Shown here: positions 15,095 through 24,621 of the stretch, piece after piece
Numbering within the stretch: position 1 is the first letter of the stretch
Layout: each line of letters opens with the position of its first letter
Assembly: GCF_000371805.1 (NCBI RefSeq)
Contig: NZ_AQUK01000001.1
Coordinates: 372,001-436,000, forward strand
Reading direction: 5' to 3'
DNA from: Methanocaldococcus villosus KIN24-T80
Lineage (GTDB): Archaea; AGJL01; Methanococci; Methanococcales; Methanocaldococcaceae
DNA length: 64,000 bases
The notes under the pieces: generated by a model
Databases searched by the model: none
Told to the model about the DNA's origin: nothing
Seen by the model: the letters and a program-made list of their open reading frames with translations, nothing else
Position numbers and translations under genes: made by a program

Positions 15095-18000
15095 TTAAGG
15101 CTTCTCTATTTTAACAGCCTTTCCATCTTTCCATTCTACGAATATTGGCTCATCTGGGATATCATCTAATGTCTTGAAGTACTCTACAGCCGCTTTTGTT
15201 CCCCATCTGTCTGAACCTGCTAATAAAATAACTATATGGCCATTTATTATCTGTTTCTCAATAACCCCTCTATTCTTACCTGGATAGTCATTAGTTACTT
15301 TAACTGGGAATGCCCATAGCCATTTCTTAACTACTGGATTTGCTATAGGACCTCCGATTAATATACAATCTTCTTTTATTTCTAATGATCTATTTATGAT
15401 ATCTACAACGTCTTTTAAATACTTAGCTGATAAGTTTAAATCGACATCATTACCTACTATAACTTTAGATTTATATACTAACTCTTTTATCTTCTCTGAT
15501 TTTATATCTTCAGCAACTCCTGGGTATTGCTCAATTGCCCTGTGATGCCCCCCACCACTACTGTAGTAAGTTGTAGTTGTAGGCAATTCAGTAACTAATA
15601 AAACATTAACAATTGGATCTTTAACTAATGTTATTTTTAAAATTCCATTATCTATTTTAAACCACCCTAATGATACATTAACATTAGGATCACCTAACGG
15701 CCTTAATTCTTTATTATCTACTTTTATAGTCTCGACTTTTAAATGCCCTATTGGGATATAGATAATTGAAAATCCTTTTTTAGATAGATTACTAACATTA
15801 AACTTAATTTCAGAAATAATTTTATTATTAACCTTCTTGGATATTTTTTTTGTTATATTTGTTATATTAAATCCTAAAGAAATTACTGATTCTACTTTAA
15901 TTTCACTAATGATTTTTTCAATATCTTTTTCTGAGGAAATCTTAATATTCATTAAATCATTATTTATATCTTTTATATCTTTTATCTTTTTAATTACGTA
16001 TTTAGTAATGTTTATAGATGTGTTTTCTAGTTTAGGGATTACTAATGTATCAATGGTTGTAGGAATAATTGTTAAGTTTATATCTTTTATTTTTTCCATC
16101 TTTACTTTATCTATATAAGTATTATTTAATACTTCACTATCTAAATTAATTCCTTCTAACGCTATTTTTATTTTTTCTGGAAGTAATGTATTATTAACGA
16201 ATACTAAATTATATGGATAACCATCACCATCAGACAATTTTATATTTTTTATTACTATATAGGATTTATTAGAAATATTAATCACTGAAATATTTGCTAT
16301 AACAAAATTACCATGTTTTGTGAAATTATATCCAGTTAGGAATATTATATTATTTTTTATTGTGTAGTTATAGACTCCTATAGCACTTATGTTAGATATA
16401 TTCACATTATCAAATTTAATATATACATCATAACCAGAACAGTTTCTTTCTATAGGTACTCCTCTAACATATATTTTTACAGTAGTATTATTCTTCACTG
16501 TATCTACATATATTGGTATTTCATTAACTTTCACTATTTTAACTAATTTATTATCACTTTCATTTTCTTCTTTAATTATATTATATTTATCTACTAAAAC
16601 TACCAAAACATAATTTTTCAATTCTTTAGGCTTCCAAACAAATGATATTGTTTTCTTTTCACCTACTTTTAAGTTATTAATTGTAATTGATCCTATAGTT
16701 TCACTGTCTGCATATAAGTTAATGTCAAATGACTTATTAATAATGTCTTGATGTCCATCATTTACAATAGTAATGTTTATTTCTGCAGGAATTCTATAAT
16801 AAATTTTATTAGGCAAAGAGACACTAGCAATTTTAATATTTGGTCCTTGTACGACTATGGATGCATTATTAGTTATAATTTTATTAAATTTATATCCATT
16901 AACATCAGATACTACTAAATTTCCAAGACTTATTTCAGAATATCCAACATCTACAGCTCTAAATATTGCTTGAGCTATTGGTTTTGAAGTATTTATTTTC
17001 CCATCAACTATTGAGAAATATATATAACCATCATTTATACTAATATTAGTTAAGTTTTCACTTATTGGAGTTATTAAGAAACTAAAGTTTTCACATTTTA
17101 AAACATTTTTATTGTAAAAGATTTTTCCTTCAATAGCTTTAACTGGCCTTTTTGGTGATATATTTTCTAAACTAATATTTACTACAAATGTTTGATCTGT
17201 TTTAATTAAGTTTTTAGATGGGTTTATCTTAATTACTATTGGATTTTCTGTAGCTATGATGTTAGTTAAAACTAAATAATTATTATTCTCATTTATTTCT
17301 TTAACTTTATTCTCACTATCTACAATAGCTGTTATTGTATAATTCTTTATATCTATTGGCATAAAATCAAATGTTATATTTTTACTTTCTCCAACATTTA
17401 GCCCATTAATAATCTTTTTCCCTACAATTTGGGAATCCGCACATAAAGATACTGTGAAATTATCAGTTATATTTCTTTCACCAACATTTTTAATTTTTAC
17501 ATTTATGCTATTATTTTGATAACAGATTATAGGTTGATTCAGTGTTATATTTTCTATAACTAAATCTGGTCCAGGAATTATAACTTTTGTTACATTAGAG
17601 TTTTTTATTTCATAAGCTCCTGTAATATCAGCCAATTTAACATTCTTTAACTCTATTGTAGTATTTCCAACATTTATTATATTAAATGTAAAGTTTATCT
17701 CTACAGGAGTTGTAGAGTTTAAATTATCTGCTATAAACATTCCATTACTGTCATTATATTTTATTGAAACATTTGAAGTAATATTTGTTAATTTTAACAT
17801 CTTTTTATCATATATAATATAACCTTCAAAACTTTTTATGGTAATATTCTCTTTAGGTTTTATAATAGTGGTGAATACTAAGTTTTTATATAATTCACCA
17901 TTAATTTTATCTGGAACTATAATATCTGCTATAGGTTTATAATTAATAACAATTGAGCAACCTTCTACACTAATATTTTCAATATGTTGCCCTTCAGGAC

Positions 18001-18385
18001 TTGAGAATACAACGTTACTTAAATTAACTACATCGCTACCACTATTAACTGCTTTAAATGTTAATGTTGCCAATGTTAGATTTCCAGAAATATCCTTAGA
18101 TAGCCAAACACTTACGAAACCATCTGAAATATTTATTTTTATTTTATTAGCATTTTCTAAAACTACCTTACTTAAGGTTATATTTTTTAATTCTAAGACG
18201 TTTTTATCGTATGTAACATAAAAATCAAAACCTTCACATAGAGGCAAGTTATTAACAGTTACATTTACGTCAAAATTATTTCCAATATAAACTTCTTTAT
18301 ACTTAGGTACTATTTGAACTGTTGCAGCTCCTGCAGTTAATAGTGACATTAATAATAATGTTAATATCAATATTCCTCTCCTCAT
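15095..18385 (-). CDS. Large secreted cohesin scaffold with S-layer C-terminal domain
   Basis: The protein of about 1096 residues has a signal peptide ([12 protein letters not shown]...) and then beta-sandwich modules: cohesin-like modules around 20-145, 150-270, 380-505 and 612-725, with CARDB-like modules around 272-378 and 508-610. A linker follows, then a Gly/His-rich spacer ([12 protein letters not shown]) and a final domain of about 170 residues with [10 protein letters not shown] and [17 protein letters not shown], the pattern of the methanococcal S-layer C-terminal domain. N-glycosylation sequons are very frequent. I infer that it sits in or on the S-layer and offers binding modules to dockerin proteins such as its neighbour at 18495. 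The start is the ATG at 18385, just after GGTGA; an ATG 24 bases upstream lies before that site. The first cohesin module is an almost exact DNA copy of one in the gene at 21296. Confidence 0.78.
17991..18289 (-). repeat. Cohesin-module inverted repeat, left copy
   Basis: This 299-base stretch encodes the core of the first cohesin module of the large scaffold. Its reverse complement matches 21386-21684 with a single difference (an Asp/Asn codon). The sequence outside the repeat is unrelated apart from distant module similarity. Confidence 0.95.
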
Positions 18386-18494
18386 ATTTTCACCACTATA
18401 ATTATTCAATTCTTAATAATTTTTACTCACAAATATAAAATTTTTGTTATAATTTATTATCAAAAATTAATTAAATATTAAAAAATAAAAATAT

Positions 18495-19874
18495 CTAATT
18501 TGCTGTATATGGTTTAGCTGTATTATCTTCTGGATTATATTTTAAAAAGAAGTGAGTAGTTCTCCCTTTAAATAGTTCTGGATGAATAATAGTCGCTAAA
18601 TCATATAATAGCTCATCAGTTTTCATTAAACCTATTTGCCAATAATCATCACTAATGCAGAAAACTCTACCATTTTTAACTGCTTTAAAATCTTTATATC
18701 CTGGATGGTCATTTTTAAATGTAGTTAACCATTTTGTGTTAGAAGGAATTACCCAAATATCTGCATTCTTTGCTCTATCAGCAAATGTCTCATAGTTTAT
18801 GCATGCTGATCCAGTACCTGGAATATCTTTAAATATATAATCTGCATGACAATCTTCCATAATTCCCTTAGCTACATAAGATTGCGCTTTTGGAACATAT
18901 GTTCCTCCATATGATGGGTAATTTTTACCCCATGCTACTAATACATAATCTCCATTTCTTGTGATTCTTCTAACATTTAGTGCATTTTTTTCTACTTTAG
19001 TAAAGTATTCTTTAGCTACATCTTCCTTATTGTATAAAGCTGCAAAAAATTTTATCCATTCAAATCTTGCTAAAAAACTATTTTCCAAATATTCTGAATC
19101 GGCTATATAAGTTAAATTTAGCTCTTTACATTTTTCAATTATAGCATCACCAGAATATCCGGGATATACTATAATAGCTTCTGGAGTCAAATTAATAATT
19201 TTATCCCAATTTGGATTCCATGAAGAACCAACATCAATAATTGATCCATTCTCTAAACCTTTCTTTATATCATTAAAATACCATGTATATCCTCCTCCCC
19301 ACATAATTCCTTTAACTGAAGAAATAACTGAACCATCATTATTTAATGGTTCCATTAATGCTATATGGGTGGAACTCATAATTACTACTCTTTTCAGGGG
19401 AACATAAAGAACTTTCACATCATTTCCATACTGTGACTTAGCTAATTTTATATAATTCTCAGCCTCAGTTTGAGGGGTTGATCTATTTATTAATACAAAT
19501 TTTTGATCTTTAGCATCAATTAAAACTTTATAAGCATATTTATCTCCTTCATAAGGATTAACTTCATGTCCATATGGGTCATAATACTTAATTTTAATAT
19601 TTTTAGCATATTTTACAGGCTCTCTAAACTTATCATAATTTCTAAATAGATAAACAACATCTGCGATATCTACAGAGTTATCACAGTTTAAATCTCCATC
19701 TGTTAATGGAACGTCTCTATGTTTAAATAGGTAAATGACATCTGATATATCAATATATCCATCTTTGTTAATGTCTCCTAACCTATGTTTATAATCTATA
19801 CTCTCTCCAAATATTGGTATTATAAATAATGAAGTTATTATTAATAAAACCAAAAACTTTTTATTATTTATCAT
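18495..19874 (-). CDS. Dockerin-tagged periplasmic-type binding protein (iron-siderophore/cobalamin class)
   Basis: The 459-residue protein has a signal peptide (FLVLLIITSLFIIPIFG), then a duplicated type I dockerin at about 33-84 with calcium loops DINKDGYIDISD and DLNCDNSVDIAD, then a class III solute-binding domain (about 105-445) of the PF01497 kind, with KRVVIMSSTHIALM, IDVGSSWNPNWDKI, EAIIVYPG and the long bridging helix region near EWIKFFAALYN. No lipobox cysteine and no membrane anchor are visible, so the dockerin is the likely means of staying on the cell. The ligand is unknown: ferric chelate, heme or corrinoid are the usual ones. No ABC permease or ATPase is nearby. A GGTGGTGAT site precedes the ATG. 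Confidence 0.85.
   Translation of the reverse strand: MINNKKFLVLLIITSLFIIPIFGESIDYKHRLGDINKDGYIDISDVIYLFKHRDVPLTDGDLNCDNSVDIADVVYLFRNYDKFREPVKYAKNIKIKYYDPYGHEVNPYEGDKYAYKVLIDAKDQKFVLINRSTPQTEAENYIKLAKSQYGNDVKVLYVPLKRVVIMSSTHIALMEPLNNDGSVISSVKGIMWGGGYTWYFNDIKKGLENGSIIDVGSSWNPNWDKIINLTPEAIIVYPGYSGDAIIEKCKELNLTYIADSEYLENSFLARFEWIKFFAALYNKEDVAKEYFTKVEKNALNVRRITRNGDYVLVAWGKNYPSYGGTYVPKAQSYVAKGIMEDCHADYIFKDIPGTGSACINYETFADRAKNADIWVIPSNTKWLTTFKNDHPGYKDFKAVKNGRVFCISDDYWQIGLMKTDELLYDLATIIHPELFKGRTTHFFLKYNPEDNTAKPYTAN
19614..19778 (-). repeat. Dockerin inverted repeat, left copy
   Basis: This 165-base stretch encodes nearly the whole dockerin of the binding protein. Its reverse complement matches 23437-23601 with one synonymous difference. 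The flanking parts of the two genes are clearly diverged. Confidence 0.95.
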
Positions 19875-19979
19875 AATATATCACCACCAATAATTTTATA
19901 TTTATTACATTAATTAAAGATTACTTAATTTTTATAAAAAAAACTTTATTAATATATAAATTTTATGTTTGGTGAGAAG

Positions 19980-20519
19980 ATGAAAAAAATAGCTATTGTT
20001 ATGTTATTCTTATTATTAACAAATTTATATGCAGTAAATCTGAAAATAGACACTCCTAAGAATGTTAAAGTTGGTGAAGAATTCAATTTAACCATTGATG
20101 TTATTAATGATAAAAAAATATCTGGTTTTGAATGTTTTATAACTATACCTAAAGATAAAATAAAAATTATTAGCATTGAAGATAATAAAACAATAAAAAA
20201 TAAAGCTGGAAATTTTTATTTTTCAAATTTTTCTAATTCTAAAGCTTTTGTAAAATTTGCATTATTTGATAAACCAATTAATAGTAATTTTAGGCTTTTA
20301 AATTTAAAACTAAGAGCTATAAGGTCAGGAGATGCTAAAATAATTATAAATGCAGTAGCTTCTGATGATGACGGAAACTGTATATTTAGGGAAAATAAGG
20401 AAATTGAAATTAAAATTATAGGAGGTAATTCTGAAGGTAATAAATCAGAAAAAGAAAATTTCTTTGATGTCTTATTAAAGACTATTTTAAATTTCATAAA
20501 ATTATTATTTGGTGATTAA
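19980..20519 (+). CDS. Small secreted protein with one cohesin-like module
   Basis: The protein has about 179 residues: a signal peptide (KKIAIVMLFLLLTNLYA), a single beta-rich module (about 20-140) with VKVGEEFNLTIDVIND, GFECFITIP and LLNLKLRAIRSGDAKI, the pattern of cohesin folds, then a charged spacer and an amphipathic helical tail (FFDVLLKTILNFIKLLFGD). It may be a peripheral or self-associating surface protein. The ATG at 19980 follows GGTGAG; an upstream ATG at 19965 precedes that site. It opens a plus-strand operon whose next gene starts directly after its stop codon. Confidence 0.7.
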   Translation: MKKIAIVMLFLLLTNLYAVNLKIDTPKNVKVGEEFNLTIDVINDKKISGFECFITIPKDKIKIISIEDNKTIKNKAGNFYFSNFSNSKAFVKFALFDKPINSNFRLLNLKLRAIRSGDAKIIINAVASDDDGNCIFRENKEIEIKIIGGNSEGNKSEKENFFDVLLKTILNFIKLLFGD

Positions 20520-21299
20520 ATGAAGAATTTAATTTTTTTAATCCTATTAATTCTATCTTGTTGCTACGCTGATGATATTATAGTTAAACTAATTCCAGAA
20601 AAGGTTGAAAATAACGGAAGTTTATTATATTTGAACATATCTGTAGAAAATATTCCCAGAAAAGATAGCCTTAATGGTGATGGAGGATGTGGAGGGGTAG
20701 ATTTATATATAAACTATTCTCCTGAGTTTTTAGATCCAGTAACCTTTAATTGGAGTGATATTTGTAAAAATCAAAAAATTAAAGAATTTAAATTCAATAA
20801 TGGTTCTTTTTACTTATCTATTTTATTTGATAATCCTATCTATGAAGATTTTATTTTAGGGACTTTAACTTTTGTTCCTAAAAAAGTAGGTATCACATAT
20901 ATCAATATTTCAGGAGTTGTTAGCTCTAAAGAGGGTTTAAAATATGATGGTTATAATTACAATGGAGTTAAATATCCAAAAACATTATTTTATGGCTCTG
21001 AGATAATTATTAAAAAATCTATTAATTATTCTGGAGAGAAAAAACTAAATGAATCTATAACAAACATTTATCAAACATCTTCAAATATTATTAATGTAAA
21101 TGTAAACATAACTGCTAATCAGAAATCACCAAAAATTATTATTAAAGAAATAAATATATCTGAAACAAAACCTAACATAACAATTTTCATAAAAGAGGAA
21201 GATAATTTAGATATTAAATTATTATTTTGTGTTTTTTTAGGTAGTATTTTATCAGGAGTTGTTTTTGGAATAATTATTAAAAATGTAGTGAGAATATGA
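20520..21299 (+). CDS. Membrane-anchored cohesin-like surface protein
   Basis: The 259-residue protein has a signal peptide ending near CCYADD, a cohesin-like module around 20-150 (YLNISVENIP, GGVDLYINYSPEFL, GTLTFVPKKVGITYINISG), a stalk rich in Asn-x-Ser/Thr sequons, and a C-terminal membrane helix (LLFCVFLGSILSGVVFGIII) followed by a short basic end. This would display one module close to the membrane. The stop of the previous gene abuts its ATG, and its own stop overlaps the next start by four bases, so the three genes are one translation-coupled operon. The cohesin reading is weaker than for the neighbours. Confidence 0.68.
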   Translation: MKNLIFLILLILSCCYADDIIVKLIPEKVENNGSLLYLNISVENIPRKDSLNGDGGCGGVDLYINYSPEFLDPVTFNWSDICKNQKIKEFKFNNGSFYLSILFDNPIYEDFILGTLTFVPKKVGITYINISGVVSSKEGLKYDGYNYNGVKYPKTLFYGSEIIIKKSINYSGEKKLNESITNIYQTSSNIINVNVNITANQKSPKIIIKEINISETKPNITIFIKEEDNLDIKLLFCVFLGSILSGVVFGIIIKNVVRI

Positions 21300-23284
21300 G
21301 CCCGAGAAAGATTTTTTTTATATTATTAATTTTAAATGTCTGTCACTGTTTTACAGTAAAATTATTACCTGAGAGTGTAAATACATATATTGGAAATAAT
21401 TTTGACGTAAATGTAACTGTTAATAACTTGCCTCTATGTGAAGGTTTTGATTTTTATGTTACATACGATAAAAACGTCTTAGAATTAAAAAATATAACCT
21501 TAAGTAAGGTAGTTTTAGAAAATGCTAATAAAATAAAAATAAATATTTCAAATGGTTTCGTAAGTGTTTGGCTATCTAAGGATATTTCTGGAAATCTAAC
21601 ATTGGCAACATTAACATTTAAAGCAGTTAATAGTGGTAGCGATGTAGTTAATTTAAGTAACGTTGTATTCTCAAGTCCTGAAGGTTATAGACTAACCCCA
21701 TCTAGAATATATGAAAGCAGTATAAATATATCCTCCTATCAAAAACCTATATCTACTCTAACGTTAAAAGATAATGAAGCTATTCTAAGTGTATATAGCC
21801 ATACTTTAATAGAAAATGTTTCTGGAAATATAACATTTAAAAATGCTTCTATACTAAACAACCCTGAACCAATAATACCCTATAACAGCTTCAATTGCCA
21901 TTGGAACTCTTCATATATTAAATTTTTTATAATTCCAAAAGAAGAAAAATCTGGTTTTGATTTATTGAAAATTCCTATAAATTTGTCTAATAATCCAAAC
22001 ATAACTATGTATATATATATAAATGGAAATCTTTCATTATCTAAAATATTCTACAATATAAACAAAATAAATGTTACAAACTATAGTGGTTTAACTTTTT
22101 ATACAGACAATTTAGCTGATGAAATCAATTTAACATATGGTCATGAAAAAGAAATCTTGCTATTAGCCAATAATATTAAAGAAAATATTACAAATATTAG
22201 TGGCTATATATATATTAACAGATCAATATTAAATGTTTATAATTATGGAATCCCTGAATCATCAGTAATATACTACAAACATAAATTAAAACATTACAAT
22301 ATTTCCCTAACTGATAACTATCTCTACTTTAATATTTCTTTTAATAGCACAAATGGTACATTTGGTATATTAAGATTTTATATATATCCAAAAATAAATA
22401 AAAATATATCAACATTGATTTATATTAAAAATCTTTCAGTCTATAAAAATTTTTCTAAACCAGTCATATTGCCTTATAAAAATTTAACTATTAATATAAT
22501 AGAAAGACCTATAAAATTAAATCATCCACCAAAGTTAAAAATAGCATGTTATATTTATAATAACAAAGAAGTTCATTTCTTAGCTTTAGCTTATGATTCA
22601 GATAATGATAGTTTAAAATATTTCTGGGATTTTGGAGATAATAGCACATCAACAATTAAAGACCCAATACATGTTTATAAAAATTTTTCTTATTATTTGG
22701 TTAAATGTATTGTAAAAGATAGCTTAAATGCATCAGCAAAAGTAGAAGGTATTTTAGAAATCAAAAACTATACTCCAGTATTGAAGTATTGCTTATCTAA
22801 TATAACTAATAACACAATATATTTAAATATATCTTTAATAAATCCATTTAAAACTAAAATTTTAGGATATATTAGTGTTTATAATAAAAACTATAATTTT
22901 TATCTCAAACCAAATGAAACCTTAAATTTATCAATACCAATCAATATTTCTGATGATGTAATTAAATATAATATTATTTATTATCCAATAATAAAAAACA
23001 AAAAAAATGAAAAATTTGAAATTTTATATTATACTTGGAATTATGAAAGGAAACTAACATCTAATATATCAGAAAGTACAAAAATATTGAGTTACAATAT
23101 AAATAAAACATTAAACTTAAACTCATCAAAAATTATTATAAAAATTAATAAAAATTATTTAGTTAAGAATTATAATATAACAAAGTCTGTTAAAACTTTC
23201 TCTAAAAAATCTTTGTTTGTTTATATATTCACTACTATTTTTAGTTTTATTTTAGGATTTATTCTTGTATATTCTAATAAATAA
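21296..23284 (+). CDS. Membrane-anchored scaffold with cohesin and PKD modules
   Basis: The 662-residue protein has a signal peptide (KIFFILLILNVCHC), a cohesin module at about 22-132, two further beta modules to about 400, a PKD domain at about 410-490 (signature YFWDFGDNS), another beta region, and a C-terminal membrane helix at about 638-658 with a short tail. The first module is almost identical, in DNA and protein, to that of the large S-layer scaffold at 15095. The two proteins therefore should bind the same dockerin but are held at different layers of the envelope: this one in the cytoplasmic membrane. Sequons are dense. It is the last gene of the three-gene operon, and a dockerin-binding protein gene follows 86 bases later. 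Confidence 0.78.
   Translation: MSPRKIFFILLILNVCHCFTVKLLPESVNTYIGNNFDVNVTVNNLPLCEGFDFYVTYDKNVLELKNITLSKVVLENANKIKINISNGFVSVWLSKDISGNLTLATLTFKAVNSGSDVVNLSNVVFSSPEGYRLTPSRIYESSINISSYQKPISTLTLKDNEAILSVYSHTLIENVSGNITFKNASILNNPEPIIPYNSFNCHWNSSYIKFFIIPKEEKSGFDLLKIPINLSNNPNITMYIYINGNLSLSKIFYNINKINVTNYSGLTFYTDNLADEINLTYGHEKEILLLANNIKENITNISGYIYINRSILNVYNYGIPESSVIYYKHKLKHYNISLTDNYLYFNISFNSTNGTFGILRFYIYPKINKNISTLIYIKNLSVYKNFSKPVILPYKNLTINIIERPIKLNHPPKLKIACYIYNNKEVHFLALAYDSDNDSLKYFWDFGDNSTSTIKDPIHVYKNFSYYLVKCIVKDSLNASAKVEGILEIKNYTPVLKYCLSNITNNTIYLNISLINPFKTKILGYISVYNKNYNFYLKPNETLNLSIPINISDDVIKYNIIYYPIIKNKKNEKFEILYYTWNYERKLTSNISESTKILSYNINKTLNLNSSKIIIKINKNYLVKNYNITKSVKTFSKKSLFVYIFTTIFSFILGFILVYSNK
21386..21684 (+). 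repeat. Cohesin-module inverted repeat, right copy
   Basis: This copy covers residues 31 to about 130 of the membrane scaffold. It matches the reverse complement of 17991-18289 in 298 of 299 positions. Both copies keep the same reading frame. Confidence 0.95.
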
Positions 23285-23295
23285 ATATTAATAAG

Positions 23296-23307
23296 ATTTA
23301 TATATTT
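23296..23307 (+). promoter_or_regulatory. TATA-like box before the second dockerin protein
   Basis: A TTTATATATT box in the 86-base gap after the membrane scaffold lies about 70 bases before the ATG at 23371. It suggests that the second binding protein has a promoter of its own besides any read-through from the cohesin operon. The region is AT-rich, so the call is tentative. Confidence 0.4.
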
Positions 23308-23370
23308 TTTAACATTTTTTATTAATTGAGTATTTATTTATTTTACTATAATATTAACAAGGTGAGGATA

Positions 23371-24621
23371 ATGAGGAAAATATTATTATTAATCATACTA
23401 ATAATAAGCTTACCAGCAATTTTTGGAAGTAAAGTTGGAGATATTAACAAAGATGGATATATTGATATATCAGATGTCATTTACCTATTTAAACATAGAG
23501 ACGTTCCATTAACAGATGGAGATTTAAACTGTGATAACTCTGTAGATATCGCAGATGTTGTTTATCTATTTAGAAATTATGATAAGTTTAGAGAGCCTGT
23601 AGTTTTTGCTAAGTATTTCCAAATAGATCAACACTGGAATGAAGGTTATTGTATAGTGACTGATTCAAAAGGTCATAAATTTTTGTTAACAAATAGATCA
23701 GATATATCAGTTCCTGGAACTATAAAAATAGAGATACCGGTTAAAAAAATAGTTACCATCTTTTACTGTCCAATTGTTTCTACAGCCGATATATTAAAAG
23801 AAAATTGGATATATGATACAATAAAAGGGGTGCCAAAGTATATATTAAAATATTCCTCTGATCTAAAAAATAGGTATAATGAAGGAAAAGTCTATGATAT
23901 AGGCTCCTCAACAAGTATTGATTATAATATAGTTTTAAATATATCTCCTGATATTGTGTTTTTAGGTGATTGGCCACAACATGATGCTATGGAAGAAAAA
24001 TTGAAAGAATTAAATTTAACTGTGTCTAGATTCTATACCTATATTGAACCTACATTTTTAGGTAGAATAGAATGGGCAAAATTTGCTGCAGCTTTTTGGG
24101 GACATAATGTATATGAAAAAGCCAATAATTATTTCCAAAATGCATGGAAAAAATATATGGATCTAAAAAGAAAAACTTATGGAGCAAATTATATAAATGC
24201 AGTGACATTCTCAGCATTCACTTCTGGTAAAGTCTATATTCCACAAGGACAAAATTACTACGCCTCATGGATAAATGATTTTAGAGGAAATTATATATTC
24301 TCCTATATCCCAGGAACTAAAAGTCAAAAAATAGATACTGAATTGTTTGTAGAAAAAGCTAAAAATGCTGATGTTGTTATATTTAGACAGTTTAAGAACA
24401 TAACTACTGCTGATGAGATAATGAATTATTATCCATTTTTAGGAAATATAAAAGAGTGGAAGGCTTACAAAAATGGTAGGTTTTATATATCCAGACCAGA
24501 TTATTATATATGGGAAGCTAAAGACCCAATAGGAATGATGGAAGACTTTGCTAAAATGTTGCATCCTGAAAAATTCCCAAATGGAGATAATGATTTAAAA
24601 TATTATCATAAAGTTAAATAA
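23371..24621 (+). CDS. Second dockerin-tagged periplasmic-type binding protein
   Basis: The protein has about 416 residues: a signal peptide (RKILLLIILIISLPAIFG), a dockerin at about 22-74 identical in protein sequence to that of the gene at 18495, and a solute-binding domain of the same class (about 95-410), with KIVTIFYCPIVS, YDIGSSTSIDYNIVLN, GRIEWAKFAAAFWG and AKNADVVIFRQF. Outside the dockerin it is only distantly similar to its partner, so the two probably bind different ligands. As in the partner, no lipobox or anchor is visible. The start is the ATG at 23371 after AAGGTGAGG; an in-frame ATG at 23326 precedes that site. Confidence 0.84.
   Translation: MRKILLLIILIISLPAIFGSKVGDINKDGYIDISDVIYLFKHRDVPLTDGDLNCDNSVDIADVVYLFRNYDKFREPVVFAKYFQIDQHWNEGYCIVTDSKGHKFLLTNRSDISVPGTIKIEIPVKKIVTIFYCPIVSTADILKENWIYDTIKGVPKYILKYSSDLKNRYNEGKVYDIGSSTSIDYNIVLNISPDIVFLGDWPQHDAMEEKLKELNLTVSRFYTYIEPTFLGRIEWAKFAAAFWGHNVYEKANNYFQNAWKKYMDLKRKTYGANYINAVTFSAFTSGKVYIPQGQNYYASWINDFRGNYIFSYIPGTKSQKIDTELFVEKAKNADVVIFRQFKNITTADEIMNYYPFLGNIKEWKAYKNGRFYISRPDYYIWEAKDPIGMMEDFAKMLHPEKFPNGDNDLKYYHKVK
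23437..23601 (+). repeat. Dockerin inverted repeat, right copy
   Basis: This 165-base stretch matches the reverse complement of 19614-19778 with one difference, at 23442, which is silent (GAT against GAC). It codes for both calcium-binding loops of the dockerin. Confidence 0.95.

Follow-up and report, generated by a model that had tools for sequence, protein, structure and literature searches.

A conserved cohesin-dockerin locus as a candidate anchoring system for ABC-importer receptors in Methanococcales

A 64,000-nucleotide (nt) stretch of the Methanocaldococcus villosus KIN24-T80 genome (contig NZ_AQUK01000001.1, positions 372,001 to 436,000; hereafter the window) contains a cluster of six genes for secreted proteins. 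Two encode solute-binding proteins (SBPs), SBP1 and SBP2, that begin with a dockerin, and four encode proteins carrying cohesin modules, one of them predicted to attach to the surface layer (S-layer). All six had been proposed in a first-pass annotation made from the sequence, and all six are present, at coordinates that agree apart from start codon choice. Coordinates below are window positions, and gene bounds depend on that choice: the large scaffold, previously 15095-18385, is read here as 15095-18409 from a TTG start, the small cohesin gene, previously 19980-20519, from an alternative start at 19965, and the second SBP gene, previously 23371-24621, from an alternative start at 23326. The locus is composed as follows.

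15095-18409, minus strand: S-layer scaffold, scaffoldin-like, with signal peptide, four cohesins, two CARDB stretches and a C-terminal S_layer_C domain
17984-18292, minus strand: cohesin module A, in the S-layer scaffold; its near-identical counterpart is 21380-21691
17618-17890, minus strand: cohesin module B of the same protein
16886-17206, minus strand: cohesin module C
16211-16498, minus strand: cohesin module D
17273-17569, minus strand: CARDB linker domain of the S-layer scaffold, the better of two stretches (Pfam)
15179-15379, minus strand: S_layer_C outer domain of the S-layer scaffold, a partial profile match (Pfam)
18495-19874, minus strand: SBP1, with signal peptide, N-terminal dockerin and Peripla_BP_2 receptor, without lipobox or other transmembrane segment
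19617-19778, minus strand: two-repeat type I dockerin of SBP1
19965-20519, plus strand: coh1, small cohesin protein with one cohesin (20061-20381) and a hydrophobic or amphipathic C-terminal tail
20520-21299, plus strand: coh2, membrane cohesin protein with one cohesin (20610-20945) and a C-terminal transmembrane segment (about 21222-21278)
21296-23284, plus strand: scaf2, membrane scaffold with two cohesins (21380-21691 and 22130-22447), a PKD domain (22559-22741) and a C-terminal transmembrane segment (about 23213-23269)
23326-24621, plus strand: SBP2, with signal peptide, N-terminal dockerin and Peripla_BP_2 receptor, without lipobox or other transmembrane segment
23437-23598, plus strand: two-repeat type I dockerin of SBP2, the same 54 residues as that of SBP1

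SBP1 and the S-layer scaffold run leftward, and coh1, coh2 and scaf2 rightward, out of a short common intergenic region, with SBP2 lying after scaf2. A shared operator or palindrome was looked for in the SBP1/coh1 intergenic region and none was found.

The presence of cohesins in four secreted proteins was borne out by a hidden Markov model (HMM) trained on the locus, which finds eight modules in the window, distributed as 4 + 1 + 1 + 2. Three window proteins exceed the curated PF00963 cut-off of 24.1 bits: the products of 19965-20519 and 21296-23284, and the N-terminus of 15095-18409, where a Pfam search in genome coordinates gives 45.4 bits. The fourth, coh2, is without a Pfam match and scores 99 bits with the locus-trained HMM. 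A profile of 62 cohesins brings up cohesins of the PDB (best E 3.5e-12). The first cohesin of scaf2 gives an AlphaFold2 (AF2) model with a mean predicted local distance difference test (pLDDT) score of 94.9, and the first 38 matches of this model in a Foldseek search of the PDB are all cohesins, the second being 2xdh, a non-cellulosomal cohesin of Archaeoglobus. Assignment to an unrelated beta-sandwich family, which the first-pass annotation had named as one outcome that would refute its reading, and a chance likeness between beta-sandwich modules, were rejected because both the PDB profile search and Foldseek return cohesins.

The four proteins end in ways that would fix them to the cell. Pfam identifies S_layer_C and two CARDB stretches in 15095-18409 and PKD in 21296-23284; the large scaffold carries the S_layer_C end in the window genome and in most complete relatives. 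A C-terminal transmembrane helix is found in nearly all complete relatives of coh2 and scaf2. Across relatives of coh1 the C-terminal helix is transmembrane or amphipathic, with a clear transmembrane helix in several.

In both SBPs a two-repeat type I dockerin comes directly behind the signal peptide, as originally described, and the loop motifs confirm it: each dockerin carries two canonical calcium loops, DINKDGYIDISD and DLNCDNSVDIAD, of which the second has N in place of G. These F-hand loops (D-x-N-x-D-G-x-I-x-x-x-D, with a following helix), two in each SBP, are near-invariant across the order. The SBP1 dockerin falls below the Pfam cut-off (Dockerin_1 E 0.083, 13.5 vs 22.9 bits), no Dockerin_1 match is listed by Pfam for that of SBP2, and PF00404 by itself detects no dockerin in the window genome, so that an order-specific profile is required. 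A profile of 38 homologous dockerins searched against the PDB retrieves mostly cellulosomal dockerins (best 5lxv_B, E 5.9e-6). A shuffle test that ignores relatedness shows the first repeat co-varying with the second at loop positions 7, 9, 10 and 11; of these, positions 10 and 11 are where clostridial type I dockerins touch cohesin. Such co-variation is as expected if either repeat can bind the same partner. Behind the dockerin, PF01497 matches SBP1 with 80.7 bits (E 1.4e-22) and SBP2 with 44.4 bits (E 1.8e-11), both above the cut-off of 27.5 bits; the AF2 model of SBP1 is poor (pLDDT 59). Across the order the dockerin model matches only these SBPs genome-wide, two of them in the window genome. 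This, together with the absence of any Pfam glycoside hydrolase domain from the six proteins, already remarked on in the first-pass annotation, and of any Pfam carbohydrate-binding module, led us to reject a cellulosome.

Sequence identity within the locus is concentrated in the putative interacting modules. Both dockerins and two of the cohesins form near-identical inverted repeats, a feature that the first-pass annotation does not mention. The arms are as follows.

17991-18322, minus strand: arm of the converted cohesin tract, partner 21353-21684; core about 99% identical, flanks unrelated
19591-19778, minus strand: arm of the converted dockerin tract, partner 23437-23624; flanks unrelated

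In the window, the SBP dockerins differ at one position in 165 nt, synonymously, and the SBP bodies are 34% identical; the cohesins that match, module A of the S-layer scaffold and the first module of scaf2, differ at two positions in 300 nt. Identity falls to background at the edges of the tracts, which end at module borders. The pattern recurs elsewhere: same-genome SBP1 and SBP2 have dockerins that are 56-100% identical and bodies that are 29-35% identical, same-genome cohesin A pairs reach 96, 95, 95 and 81%, with G022, G029 and G030 accounting for the values of 81-95% between the leading cohesins of their two scaffolds. Dockerins and cohesins are both homogenised in the window and in G022, and mainly dockerins in G023 and G033. 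An assembly chimera as the source of the repeats was rejected on account of this like module-limited identity in other genomes (cohesins in G022, G029 and G030; dockerins in G022, G023 and G033). The inverted repeats could also mediate a DNA inversion that swaps the N-termini of scaffold and SBP genes.

Conserved adjacency of dockerin-SBP and cohesin genes, which had been named as a check, was found in a survey of 36 Methanococcales genomes (the phylum-level set is the same 36). The divergent locus recurs across the order, in what we take to be Methanocaldococcus, Methanothermococcus and three further genera. Relatives of the SBPs are present in 33 of the 36 genomes, and cohesin matches genome-wide lie mostly inside this locus or its scattered parts. 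Dockerin and cohesin occur together in 24 genomes and are both absent from 10; one genome has a dockerin only and one, G027, whose SBP1 is truncated by a contig end, a cohesin only (Fisher p 5e-7, a value that treats these related genomes as independent).

The comparison of anchors was restricted to SBPs over 365 amino acids, which are near full length. All 45 dockerin-bearing SBPs have a signal peptide, no lipobox and no second transmembrane segment, leaving the dockerin as their sole recognisable means of retention. All 10 SBPs without a dockerin carry a lipobox (e.g. FAGC, LSGC). They come from five genomes in which both paralogues are without dockerin and no cohesin match is found. A maximum-likelihood tree built from the SBP bodies places the lipobox forms of SBP1 in one clade and those of SBP2 in another, each nested inside dockerin forms and drawn from the same five genomes. 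Most simply, the two receptors would have exchanged their dockerins for lipid anchors in one coordinated step in which the cohesin genes were lost as well; this counts as a single event, or a single transferred island, and not as many. The lipobox relatives serve as a natural control.

That all 45 proteins have a signal peptide but neither a lipid anchor nor a second membrane anchor would also be expected of secreted, hemophore-like scavengers that diffuse off, load ligand and are recaptured by cohesins, with no permanent tether; the placing of cohesins on S-layer proteins as well as on membrane proteins would suit such capture and relay. Known cohesin-dockerin pairs, however, bind very tightly, and the relatives rely on a permanent lipid anchor, which makes free scavenging unlikely. 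We consider it probable instead that pairing with cohesins tethers the receptors to the cell surface. The first-pass annotation had proposed dockerin-tagged receptors held on S-layer and membrane scaffolds, and this part of it gains support from the fold and profile membership of the modules, the absence of another SBP anchor, the co-occurrence, the coordinated lipobox replacement and the homogenised interface modules; the physical binding of dockerin to cohesin, its calcium dependence and the surface location are inferred.

A dedicated, non-cellulosomal cohesin-dockerin system would thus anchor the receptors of a FecCD/BtuC-class ATP-binding cassette (ABC) importer in Methanococcales. The N-terminal dockerin of the two secreted receptors would take the place of a lipoprotein anchor and plug, via its calcium loops, into cohesins of the S-layer-attached scaffold and of the membrane-anchored proteins. 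The receptors would be kept at and under the S-layer, an arrangement that would allow loading, exchange or clustering near the permease pair. The CARDB and PKD domains, which are of adhesion type, and the S-layer attachment could also be read as parts of a system for cell-cell or surface adhesion, with an incidental SBP domain, and adhesion roles have been proposed for anaerobic methanotrophic (ANME) archaea (PMC5244752). The dockerin model, however, matches importer SBPs only, order-wide, and both SBPs gain a lipid anchor where the dockerin is lost, so adhesion appears very improbable. An extension of the anchoring model, which we offer tentatively, is a two-tier relay: receptors would load at cohesins outside the S-layer, then let go or be passed on, and dock again at membrane cohesins next to FecCD. 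The S-layer would then be an active surface for corrinoid capture, and repeated, module-limited gene conversion would keep plug and socket matched.

The ligand can be approached through the genes around the SBPs. In many genomes the SBPs are adjoined by FecCD permease pairs and an ATPase. Of 30 genomes, 20 have a CobN-family gene no more than 10 kb from an SBP, against an expectation of 1.8, and CbiZ is that close in seven genomes (about 0.9 expected by a rough estimate, G018-G020 being close relatives); CbiZ and a CbiR-like gene occur together inside the island in G003 and G009. The nearby CobN exceeds the NCBIfam cobalto_cobN cut-off (1049 vs 822 bits), and for the neighbouring ATPase NCBIfam ranks a corrinoid transporter first, with a score under the cut-off. 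Because CobN, CbiZ and CbiR-like genes neighbour the SBPs, a corrinoid (a cobamide or precursor) is the likeliest ligand, with roughly an even chance of being the right one. Haem, another metal tetrapyrrole or a ferric chelate is a possible but distinctly less probable alternative. The anchoring would then be the same, and the importer would feed a CobN-like de-chelatase resembling HmuS, an enzyme that strips iron from haem and whose archaeal homologues have a role stated to be unclear (EMBO J 2025, PMC12583661). The frequent CobN/HmuS superfamily genes near the SBPs fit such a cargo, as do the best NCBIfam matches of the receptors themselves, IsdE (haem) for SBP1 (E 0.006) and SstD (ferrated catecholamine) for SBP2 (E 0.001), both far below cut-off. 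The corrinoid-remodelling genes CbiZ and CbiR-like that share the island in several genomes and the cobalto_cobN score argue against it. Of the three ligands named in the first-pass annotation (ferric chelate, heme or corrinoid), the context favours the last over the others. One genome has a CobN-family gene on each side of the dockerin/cohesin locus (L073:457-4146; G022:C1:134667-137960). A NifH/CfbC-like gene follows straight after SBP1 in several lipobox genomes, e.g. L046:14541-15377 in G004; its CfbC match is below cut-off (369 vs 402 bits), and no link to F430 is therefore claimed.

Several observations weigh against a dedicated anchor for a corrinoid importer. The lipobox state being a single evolutionary event, few independent changes underlie the co-occurrence. 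The nearest FecCD pair in the window genome is about 300 kb off and the nearest CobN about 98 kb, so that the locus is unlinked to either, and CbiZ is likewise unlinked. The CbiR and corrinoid-ATPase matches fall below NCBIfam cut-offs, and the ligand evidence is by association. G005 and G006 each encode two dockerin SBPs, with a single cohesin gene detectable, and in the complete genome G014 a dockerin SBP is present while no cohesin can be detected. The last case would suit a dockerin that does no more than cap the N-terminus in a calcium-stabilised form, without binding cohesin, a proposal that is hard to credit given the co-occurrence (24 vs 1), the shared divergent locus, the homogenised partner modules and the co-variation between dockerin repeats. 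The G014 SBP (L060:7053-8324) has V-V at positions 10-11 of its second loop, and its dockerin is possibly decaying. The single cohesin genes (L048:5140-5685 in G005, L049:13282-13839 in G006) represent a minimal form of the system.

Archaea are already known to have non-cellulosomal cohesins and dockerins, and the function of such pairs outside the cellulosome has been called unknown (PMC5244752). The Methanococcales system shares with the type I cellulosome (Clostridium and others) its module families, the two-repeat calcium dockerin and a scaffold with tandem cohesins fixed to the S-layer or surface; it differs in that the cargo is two ABC-importer receptors, the dockerin is N-terminal, one dockerin type per genome is dedicated to SBPs, and the six proteins give no match to a glycoside hydrolase or carbohydrate-binding module. 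The Archaeoglobus fulgidus cohesin/dockerin (2xdh) is likewise archaeal, hyperthermophilic and non-cellulosomal; here, unlike there, scaffolds have up to five cohesins (locus HMM), and SBP cargo and locus are conserved. The closest precedent is in ANME archaea, where dockerin-bearing ABC-transporter SBPs and scaffoldin-like multi-cohesin proteins, with a suggested S-layer link, were reported (Chadwick et al. 2022, PMC9012536), so the earlier statement that no nutrient-capture use had been described was too strong. There, however, SBPs of the NikA/OppA and TroA types are one of many cargos, with no assignment of locus or partner; the Methanococcales locus is conserved and divergent, carries no cargo other than FecCD/BtuF-class SBPs, and comes with an anchor-swap control. 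The lipobox FecCD-type SBPs of Methanocaldococcus relatives (e.g. G004) are orthologous to SBP1 and SBP2 and have ABC ATPase and FecCD permeases alongside, but a lipobox replaces the dockerin and cohesin genes are absent. In the HmuS/CobN haem uptake of Bacteroidota (PMC12583661) a CobN-superfamily chelatase gene is also tied to metal-tetrapyrrole uptake, whereas here the tie is gene proximity and the CbiZ and CbiR-like neighbours indicate corrinoids. No paper on this system in Methanococcales was found in a search that left most subscription papers outside. As far as could be checked, what is new is the dedicated conserved locus, the partner assignment, the exchange of dockerin for lipobox and the matched homogenisation of modules.

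The relatives that have a predicted lipid anchor in place of dockerin and cohesins suggest that the clip of the cellulosome serves here to keep nutrient receptors at the cell surface. Non-cellulosomal cohesin-dockerin pairs would thereby have a specific job, as an exchangeable anchor of nutrient receptors, with a hint of how receptors might be retained by cells whose envelope has an S-layer but lacks a cell wall. The locus would also be a source of thermostable, matched plug-socket pairs, and it provides a starting point for work on archaeal CobN/HmuS homologues, described as being of unclear use (PMC12583661). A contig scan with one protein as query returned six loci, all from metagenome-assembled or single-cell genomes. 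Some genomes hold additional dockerin SBP copies, some with stops or frameshifts (L075:7636-10257 in G023, L094:7840-9099 in G034); the broken copies suggest a turnover of receptors behind the same dockerin.

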